Source of the DNA: Reyranella sp.
GTDB lineage: Bacteria > Pseudomonadota > Alphaproteobacteria > Reyranellales > Reyranellaceae
Direction of reading: 5' to 3'
Assembly (NCBI RefSeq): GCF_004297405.1
Contig: NZ_SCVC01000006.1
Span: 434,001 to 498,000 of the forward strand
DNA: 64,000 bases
Part shown: piece after piece, positions 28,445 through 30,188 of the stretch
Numbering within the stretch: position 1 is the first letter of the stretch
How the letters are laid out: the number at the start of each line of letters is the position of its first letter
Program-made: the position numbers and the translations under genes
The notes under the pieces: model-generated
The model's database searches: none
What the model saw: the letters and a program-made list of their open reading frames with translations, nothing else
Told to the model about the DNA's origin: nothing

Positions 28445-28861
28445 ATGTCTGCAGCCGCCGCCGCAAACTACCGCATGCTCCACACGATGATCCGCGTCAT
28501 GGATCTCGACAAGTCGCTGGCCTTCTATACCGGGCCAATGGGCATGAAGCTGCTGCGCAAGCGCGACGTGCCCGAGGGCAAGTACAGCCTGGCCTTCGTC
28601 GGCTATGGCGAGGAACCCGAGCACTGCGTCGTCGAGCTGACCCACAATTGGGATCAGGCGAAGCCCTACGAGCTCGGCACCGGTTTCGGCCACCTGGCCG
28701 TCGGCGTGCCTGATGTCTATGGCGTCTGCGAGCAGGTCACCAAGACGGGCGGCAAGGTCACCCGTGCGCCGGGGCCGGTGAAGTTCGGCACGACGGTCAT
28801 CGCCTTCGTCGAGGATCCCGACGGCTACAAGATCGAGCTGATCGAGCGGAAACCCAGTTAG
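28445..28861 (+). CDS. gloA: Lactoylglutathione lyase (glyoxalase I), 3' end rebuilt by an inserted element
   Basis: Converts the methylglyoxal-glutathione adduct to S-lactoylglutathione in the cytosol. The 138-residue VOC protein has the expected metal ligands His13, Glu64, His83 (GFGHLAVGV) and Glu131 (GYKIELIE). A strong AGGAGAGG site precedes the ATG. The last 29 coding bases before the final few codons (28817-28845) are repeated exactly at 30132-30160, beyond an mrr-bearing insert. The present C terminus therefore comes from the insert side and reads ERKPS, whereas the displaced original 3' end encodes ERK then stop. Function should be kept because Glu131 lies inside the repeated segment. 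Confidence 0.93.
28817..28845 (+). repeat. 29-bp direct repeat, left copy (attL-like)
   Basis: Exact copy of 30132-30160, in the same orientation. It lies inside the gloA 3' end and encodes most of the DGYKIELIE segment. After the 29 identical bases the two copies differ at two positions and then share GGAA. It marks the left edge of the mrr insert. Confidence 0.9.
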
Positions 28862-29128
28862 TCACAGAATCCAATAAATTGAACATCCTTATAGTGGTGA
28901 CGCGATTGCTGGACCTGACCACGTAGCTCGGACTGCTCTTTGCGCTTCATCCCACACCTCGAAATCGTTGAGGCAAGTGTGTAGGGAAGCTGGTAGCCCG
29001 AACTTGTCCCTCCACCTAAGGTGCACCTGCAGTCGTGTGGAAAACCTGCCTGATCTGACCGCAAGCAGTCCGACAACACTGCGTTAACAATCGGGCGAAG
29101 TTCTGGTACGCCATGTGCGGAGAACACC

Positions 29129-30046
29129 ATGGCCGTCCCTGCGTTTCACAACTTACTGTTGTCGCTTTTGAAGCGCACCCATGATGGTGCAAAGCATCGT
29201 CTTCCGCTTCTCGCACCACTTGTTGCCAGAGATCTTAACCTCACTACGGATGACCTATCAGAGCTCTTGCCGTCGGGAGTGCAGAGCCGCTACCGGAACC
29301 GCTTGGCTTGGGCGAAGGTCTACTTGTCCCGCGCGGGCCTCCTGGAGACCGTGGAGCGCGGCAGTTTCCGGATAACGGACCGCGGGAAGAAACTCCTCGC
29401 GACCAACCCGCCCGAAGTCACTTTGGACACGCTGAGACAGTACCCGGAGTTCAGTGCCTTTGTGGGCAAGACGACGGCGGCGGGAGCATCCGCAGCGTCC
29501 GCGGCGGATGTTAACGAGAAGGAGGACACGCCCGAGGAGACTTTGGAAGCCGCGTACAGCACTGTTCGGGCGTCGCTGGGCCAGCAACTGCACGTAGCCA
29601 TTATGGCCGCAACCCCTGCATTTTTCGAACGTCTGGTCTTGGATCTGATGCTAGCAATGGGGTATGGCGGCTCGCGCGCTGATGCTGCCAGGAATGTTGC
29701 AAAGTCGGGAGATGGCGGCATTGATGGCATCATCAGCGAGGATCGCCTCGGATTGGATTTTATTTACCTGCAGGCCAAGCGGTGGACCAATTCGGTAGGC
29801 GGCGACGAGGTTCGCAATTTCTCGGGCAGCCTCGACGCACACGGTGCGCAGAAGGGGGTGTTCATCACTACGTCAACCTTCACCGCCAGCTCCTTAAAAT
29901 ACGTTCGAGATGTTAAGCACAAGAAGATCGTGCTCATTAACGGCGAGCGCTTAACCCAGCTCATGATGGACTTTAACGTCGGAGTGGCACCGGCCAAAAC
30001 GTTTGAGGTCAAGCGGATGGACCTCGAGTACTTCGAGGAAGAGTAG
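29129..30046 (+). CDS. mrr: Mrr-family restriction endonuclease
   Basis: A predicted type IV (modification-dependent) restriction enzyme. The 305-residue protein has an N-terminal winged-helix Mrr_N domain (about 1-92, with SRYRNRLAWAKVYLSRAGLL and FRITDRGKKLL), an Ala-rich linker (about 117-140), and a C-terminal PD-(D/E)xK nuclease. In the nuclease, Asp199 lies in GDGGIDG and Gln215-Lys217 in LQAKRW, the D-QxK arrangement of Mrr. A GGAG site precedes the ATG. Codon use and GC are clearly unlike the neighbours. No methyltransferase accompanies it, which fits a type IV enzyme. It is the only gene recognised in the small island. Modified-base specificity cannot be predicted. Confidence 0.88.
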   Translation: MAVPAFHNLLLSLLKRTHDGAKHRLPLLAPLVARDLNLTTDDLSELLPSGVQSRYRNRLAWAKVYLSRAGLLETVERGSFRITDRGKKLLATNPPEVTLDTLRQYPEFSAFVGKTTAAGASAASAADVNEKEDTPEETLEAAYSTVRASLGQQLHVAIMAATPAFFERLVLDLMLAMGYGGSRADAARNVAKSGDGGIDGIISEDRLGLDFIYLQAKRWTNSVGGDEVRNFSGSLDAHGAQKGVFITTSTFTASSLKYVRDVKHKKIVLINGERLTQLMMDFNVGVAPAKTFEVKRMDLEYFEEE

Positions 30047-30131
30047 GCGGGTTGGACCTGAGGCTTGCACGCGGCACTGTGCCAAGGGCGTACCAAAGAC
30101 GACGAAATCCCTTCTGCATGGGGTTCTCTAA

Positions 30132-30160
30132 CCCGACGGCTACAAGATCGAGCTGATCGA
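30132..30160 (+). repeat. 29-bp direct repeat, right copy (attR-like), with displaced gloA 3' end
   Basis: Identical to 28817-28845. Read in the gloA frame it continues to a TAA at 30168-30170, so 30132-30170 is the original 3' end of gloA, left behind as a non-coding scrap after insertion of the island. The next gene, the VOC protein on the other strand, ends 18 bp further on, the expected arrangement for the uninterrupted locus. Confidence 0.9.
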
Positions 30161-30188
30161 AAGGAAGTAAGCTGTCTTTGGCAGCTTG

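Follow-up and report, generated by a model that had tools for sequence, protein, structure and literature searches.

How did a restriction gene come to lie between two copies of the 3' end of gloA, and what placed it there? We addressed this question in a window of 64,000 nucleotides (the whole stretch of DNA that was analyzed) from a Reyranella sp. genome of 6.46 Mb in 50 contigs. Upstream of gloA are genes that we take, from their translations, to be fabZ- and bamA-like, and a presumably citrate-synthase-like gene lies beyond a second glyoxalase-type gene. This second gene, of the glyoxalase/VOC type, occupies 30189-30650, immediately follows the native gloA end, and is read from the other strand; the DNA that aligns with it is also present in a collinear congener (G022). 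The features of the locus are as follows.

28445-28861, plus strand: gloA, glyoxalase I (TIGR00068, 161.9 bits against a cut-off of 120; Glyoxalase, PF00903)
28817-28845, plus strand: left repeat copy, the attL-like core, inside gloA; its likeness to the right copy continues to 28851 with 2 mismatches
28846-30160, no strand: net insert of 1315 bp, equally 28852-30166, with the crossover placeable anywhere within the repeat; absent from G022
28862-29128, no strand: non-coding DNA of the insert to the left of mrr (53.2% GC; without an Rfam match; relatives only as 23-24 bp matches)
29129-30046, plus strand: mrr, a 305-aa Mrr-type restriction protein (Pfam Mrr_N at residues 6-91 and Mrr_cat at 160-279; PADLOC mREase_IV, E 1.4e-83)
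30047-30131, no strand: right non-coding part of the insert, with no relative in the 75 other genomes of the order
30132-30160, plus strand: right repeat copy, the attR-like core, which together with 30161-30170 forms the orphaned native gloA 3' end including its TAA
30166-30190, plus strand: terminator-like hairpin from a consensus scan, behind the native gloA end and now 3' of mrr

A first-pass annotation of this DNA had described a perfect 29-bp repeat with one copy in gloA and the other forming an orphan 3' end, and both the coordinates and the separate stop codon of the orphan (TAA at 30168-30170) were confirmed. The copies are in direct orientation and identical at 29 of 29 positions; the extended repeat, 28817-28851 against 30132-30166, is identical at 33 of 35, and the copies diverge beyond the core. 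No other exact direct repeat in the window with copies up to 5 kb apart reaches this length, the runner-up being 21 bp long, and in Markov-1 simulations of the window (n = 30) the longest direct repeat did not exceed 19 bp. With up to 3 mismatches allowed, the 29-mer has two sites in the whole genome, both at gloA, and no third copy.

Comparison with G022 shows which end of gloA is native. The right copy runs on as in this congener, through the stop codon and into the opposite-strand glyoxalase gene, and because the downstream DNA matches the G022 continuation, we take the right copy to be the native gloA end. The left copy reads into the insert, from which the last 16 bases of the present gene (28846-28861) derive, and its C terminus is ...ERKPS-stop, compared to ...ERK in G022; the insert therefore brought its own gloA 3' end, and the gene was rebuilt. 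Such a rebuilding by the incoming element, with the native 3' end displaced behind it, is a feature of tyrosine-recombinase integration into gene 3' ends. The remainder of gloA (28445-28816) is closest to G022, as are the neighboring genes, and gloA was therefore not exchanged as a whole. The 150 bp immediately preceding the repeat most resemble those of a different congener, G030 (91.3%), and G022 does not rank among the six best; we read this as noise in a short sample, and a short recombined tract would fit too. Two more specific glyoxalase models, NF007629 and NF050074, score gloA below their cut-offs. The region contains three terminator-like sites against a shuffled mean of 1.4, which supports the hairpin weakly.

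The first-pass annotation had also predicted that an empty site would read through gloA and its native end with one repeat copy, and this is what G022, which is approximately 89% identical, contains: window positions 1-28848 and 30132-37028 abut in it, with 32-35 bases of overlap at one gloA 3' end. Collinearity covers 28.8 kb to the left of the insert and, with small gaps, extends to ~55.9 kb on the right; up to window position 55,927, the insert is the only window segment of more than 1 kb that is missing from G022, the other gaps being 470, 94, and 15 bases. Across the order, the 29-mer (≤3 mismatches) matched in 69 of 76 genomes, with a single copy in 68 and two in this genome; several of the 7 genomes lacking a match are incomplete. 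The class sample gave matches to a degenerate core in 73 of 385 genomes, with the tandem pair in this genome alone; G367 also has two matches, each on a separate contig. A further occupied gloA site was found neither among the 69 matching order genomes nor among the 73 matching class genomes (one contig, of G081, stops 96 bp past the core). Of the neighbors of the 29-mer for which a search in related genomes had been proposed, other cargo at gloA was seen in neither the order nor the class sample, and integrases at gloA were not seen in the order. Entry of foreign DNA into the gloA 3' end, leaving one repeat copy on each side and rebuilding the gene, is thus supported, and the insertion is clean, real, and private to one genome in these data.

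Several other origins were considered and rejected. An old local duplication, for which mrr at the same place in all relatives had been named in advance as the telltale outcome, does not account for the locus: the relatives do not all carry mrr there, the copies enclose DNA that is foreign to the locus and missing from the collinear G022, and the insert flanks are absent from the 75 other genomes of the order. A transposon target duplication is usually shorter than 29-35 bp, and here the copies continue differently and no transposase lies inside. There is no tRNA in the window to serve as an attachment site, and an RNA element is not indicated, since 28300-30800 gave nothing in Rfam at E values up to 1. 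In two genomes, G014 (L056) and G024 (L053), the DNA to the right of gloA differs, but it consists of ordinary genes and the 29-mer is single, so we do not count these as other gloA islands.

The composition of the insert also sets it apart. Its GC content is 56.7%, compared to 63.7% for the window and 64.5% for gloA, and lies below that of every 1315-bp window sampled at 100-base steps (lowest 57.0%). A lower GC content in the insert had been claimed and is borne out, but "much lower" is not, as the 60-base lines, in the line phase used here, span 28 to 42 of 60 and the quoted counts of 27 and 26 of 60 were not reproduced. The claims of one recognized gene and of no integrase hold: apart from the ORF with Mrr_N and Mrr_cat no other was recognized, and we found no integrase domain among the insert's ORFs, no integrase gene or recognizable remnant of one within the insert, and no packaging or capsid-modifying gene within the 1.3 kb. 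A 90-aa antisense ORF matched no NCBIfam model. The left 283 bases have only 23-24 bp matches in the order, in three genomes, and the right 101 bases have no relative in its 75 other genomes. The stretch 29105-29128, just before the mrr start, is 96% identical over 23-24 bp to an antisense ispH stretch in two congeners, a likeness that we judged to be probable chance. Our scan for arm motifs returned two 9-bp matches shared by the insert's two ends, as a raw scan count.

The cargo gene is co-directional with gloA and open over 305 codons, and its product contains both domains that mark the Mrr family, the DNA-reading Mrr_N and the nuclease Mrr_cat; no NCBIfam model matched it. Its translation includes a QAK triplet, which we take to be part of the active site. 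It shares this domain architecture and the PADLOC mREase_IV match with Mrr-family type IV enzymes and differs from them in standing alone in a 1.3-kb context between repeats; the E. coli enzyme and its island enter this comparison from general knowledge. Judged by its sequence, the protein is probably a restriction endonuclease of type IV, the modification-dependent kind, and would attack modified DNA that enters the cell; both this activity and the expression of mrr are predictions. A promoter scan gave one promoter-like site, on the opposite strand, and we saw no convincing promoter for mrr.

Relatives of this protein (E 1e-20) occur in 6 of the 76 order genomes, including this one, with 78% identity in G016 and 41-44% in the other four. 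The G016 protein is the closest homologue found (238 of 305 residues identical in the full alignment); it is from another species and is encoded elsewhere, between unrelated flanks, and the flanks of the two genes align no better than shuffles (18 of 100 upstream and 6 of 100 downstream shuffles reach the score). In G016 the gene (L039, 8250-10491) stands behind a transposase-like ORF at an unrelated place; from its sequence, we take this ORF to be an IS256-type transposase. Within 3.5 kb, no repeats longer than 15 bp lie across the G016 gene, none longer than 14 bp was found at the Mrr loci of the other four congeners, and a search for an empty site of the G016 gene gave partial matches only. 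More distant relatives were found in genome contigs (7 loci, with 43-54% identity in the best-aligned segment), in 40 plasmid records (all <60%), and in 2 phage records (~37%), and none was confirmed in viral contigs. These differing contexts imply that mrr moves among genomes in various settings, gloA being one.

Tyrosine-recombinase insertions at gene 3' ends usually have a linked integrase and a reused site, and neither was found here. None of the 7 Phage_integrase loci in the genome is at gloA; the one closest to it is ~185 kb away on the same contig. Near 4 of these 7 loci the core has loose matches (5 mismatches in 20), which were rejected as background, the window itself having 3 more at 5 mismatches and 1 at 4. 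In the viral collection, one contig, IMGVR_UViG_3300047160_004125 (L092), contains the exact 21-mer CTACAAGATCGAGCTGATCGA of the 29-bp core. There the 21-mer opens a gloA-like reading of 20 residues followed by a stop, with unrelated sequence interrupting it upstream. This gloA-like 3' end stands, within positions 551-2050, directly beside a tyrosine integrase, its first in-frame codons being ~55 bp from the 446-aa ORF with the Phage_integrase domain; a SnoaL_4 gene on its other side suggests host DNA there. In L092 a prophage thus probably borders on host DNA within the 3' end of a gloA gene, the orphan end lying against the element as in the window, and gloA 3' ends probably serve as phage attB sites elsewhere, a role that is new here and is seen in one contig whose host gene is known by its tail. 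The two loci have those 21 bases exactly in common and an orphan gloA end that abuts the element; L092 differs in having its own integrase and in the arms beside the core, which have no evident similarity when judged by eye. The first-pass proposal of gloA as attB thus gains from L092, whereas no integrase-bearing element was found at gloA in the order.

Wider searches added no second case. In the viral contigs, a long gloA-type pattern gave 0 matches, a wider core pattern 7, of which only L092 is gloA-like, a leucine variant of the core 4, none gloA-like, and a last further variant 0. The junction sequences, compared with phage and plasmid DNA, gave chance-level matches in phages, plus plasmid-borne gloA/VOC genes. 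No relative of the L092 integrase was found in the 76 order genomes at E 1e-15, in a search without a positive control. The gloA core was not seen near its relatives in 3 viral contigs, which end inside the integrase gene, near its homologues in 4 of 398 phylum genomes (28-32%), or near the 40% homologue in Curvibacter phage PCA1, where the integrase gene lies next to a tRNA-Cys gene. The open-access literature searched, as far as its text was available, yielded no report of gloA or glyoxalase as an integration site, and gloA is not described as an att site in the available parts of PMC9044938, PMC7344871, PMC2605562, and PMC5971314.

We consider it probable, though well short of certain, that the 1.3-kb unit is a CIME-like, integrase-less, att-flanked islet that was placed by a tyrosine recombinase since lost or acting in trans; we infer both the class of the recombinase and its loss or supply in trans. 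This account is favored because the insert ends exactly at the repeat and the native end and downstream DNA resume after it, because all 68 other matching order genomes have a single copy and the G022 site is empty, and because the gloA body is nearest G022, the insert has the lowest GC content for its size, and L092 has an integrase at a gloA-like end. The two Mrr domains and the PADLOC type IV match also agree with it. It is weakened by the lack of an integrase or remnant in the insert, of a relative of the L092 integrase in the order, and of a second occupied gloA site, when integrase attachment sites are usually reused by other elements. Two further points weaken it, the use of gloA by the L092 integrase resting on one contig and the last 150 bp of gloA being nearest G030, which is compatible with a short recombined tract. 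Since the insertion is in one genome and no other cargo is found at gloA, the data agree equally with a decayed remnant and with a minimal mobile unit.

By this route, a DNA circle containing mrr and a copy of the gloA 3' end would have recombined with the chromosomal gloA 3' end through a recombinase, most likely of the tyrosine type and from a phage or genomic island. A single strand exchange in the 29-bp core would have split gloA, with the insert supplying a replacement 3' end that left the gene whole, and would have pushed the native 3' end and its terminator-like hairpin to the far side of the insert. The recombinase gene would no longer be linked: a larger island may have lost it through a deletion within the island, as in CIMEs, or the enzyme may have acted in trans. 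Transcription of mrr may occur by read-through from gloA and end at the displaced hairpin; this is plausible because mrr is co-directional, the promoter-like site is on the other strand, and the hairpin lies behind mrr.

A less likely origin, although one to be taken seriously, is RecA-type insertion (Campbell or homology-facilitated) of DNA from a related strain in which a gloA 3' end lay next to mrr, with no site-specific recombinase involved. The 29-35 bp of identity could seed such recombination, but both joints fall at the ends of one short repeat, an outcome that integration of a circle gives and an illegitimate joint would reach only by luck. That the rebuilt gloA end differs from the native one is as expected of donor DNA, yet no donor with mrr behind gloA was found among the 76 order genomes. 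The absence of any integrase nearby and the G030-like 150 bp before the repeat would also fit; overall, however, the gloA body is nearest G022.

It is rather improbable, in our estimate, that the unit is instead a minimal defence satellite, that is, a mobile 1.3-kb element selected to be short and moved in trans by gloA-specific phage or island integrases. Such a recombinase-free satellite would be moved by phage integrases at a core conserved in much of the class and would rebuild gloA each time, and phages themselves would then spread a gene that restricts other phages. The insert retains both att-like sites with a perfect 29-bp core and an intact mrr ORF of 305 codons with both domains, but it is confined to a single genome in these data, and the 75 other order genomes contain nothing related to its flanks beyond 23-24 bp matches. 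Some support comes from L092, by which a gloA-3'-end integrase probably exists in a phage; against this, no helper was found in the order, and the loci of its Mrr relatives have neither the same flanks nor a long repeat around the gene. An assembly artefact, in which a separate small circle or contaminant was joined into gloA via the shared 29-mer, is very improbable, for although the joints share a short repeat and one assembly alone has the insertion, the 925-kb contig has the locus in its middle and belongs to an assembly of 50 contigs with a contamination of 0.52%, G022 is collinear with both flanks (over 28.8 kb on the left and, with small gaps, to ~55.9 kb on the right), and the two repeat copies differ beyond the core.

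Returning to the islet placed by a recombinase, its likeness to known systems is partial. A CIME is a cis-mobilizable element that has lost its integration and transfer genes and kept attL and attR (available text of PMC5704250). Like a CIME, the islet lies in the 3' end of a gene, lacks genes for integration and transfer, and has its cargo enclosed by att-like flanks; unlike one, it is much shorter and has one cargo gene, no ICE/IME remnant, and no adjoining partner ICE or IME. We use the term CIME-like, without counting the islet as a CIME, on the basis of two anatomical features that we tested and found: attL- and attR-like flanks created by insertion, with an empty site elsewhere, and a lack of integration and transfer genes in the insert, where mrr is the sole recognized ORF. 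Pseudo-SCC elements lack ccr genes; they occupy the 3' end of a housekeeping gene, and att repeats enclose their cargo, which sometimes includes restriction genes. Taken from this general description, the resemblance is in recombinase-less cargo between such repeats, and the differences are their serine recombinases, rlmH site, and staphylococcal hosts. CALIN arrays and MITEs, recombinase-less hitchers in the available text of PMC11389934, are similar in depending on another element's recombinase and differ in using integron attC sites or transposon ends, compared to the long direct repeat in a protein gene here.

If the islet has this origin, one restriction gene can be carried by a 1.3-kb unit that is complete in itself and flanked by att sites. 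This is much smaller than what is usually called as an island, and such small units would be missed by most defence surveys. The data also point to gloA 3' ends as an integration site whose core is one short conserved coding stretch. Elsewhere in the window, at 59374-61238, where the alignment with G022 is broken, several exact repeats of 17-21 bp are spaced ~1.2 kb apart, pointing to tandem paralogous genes.
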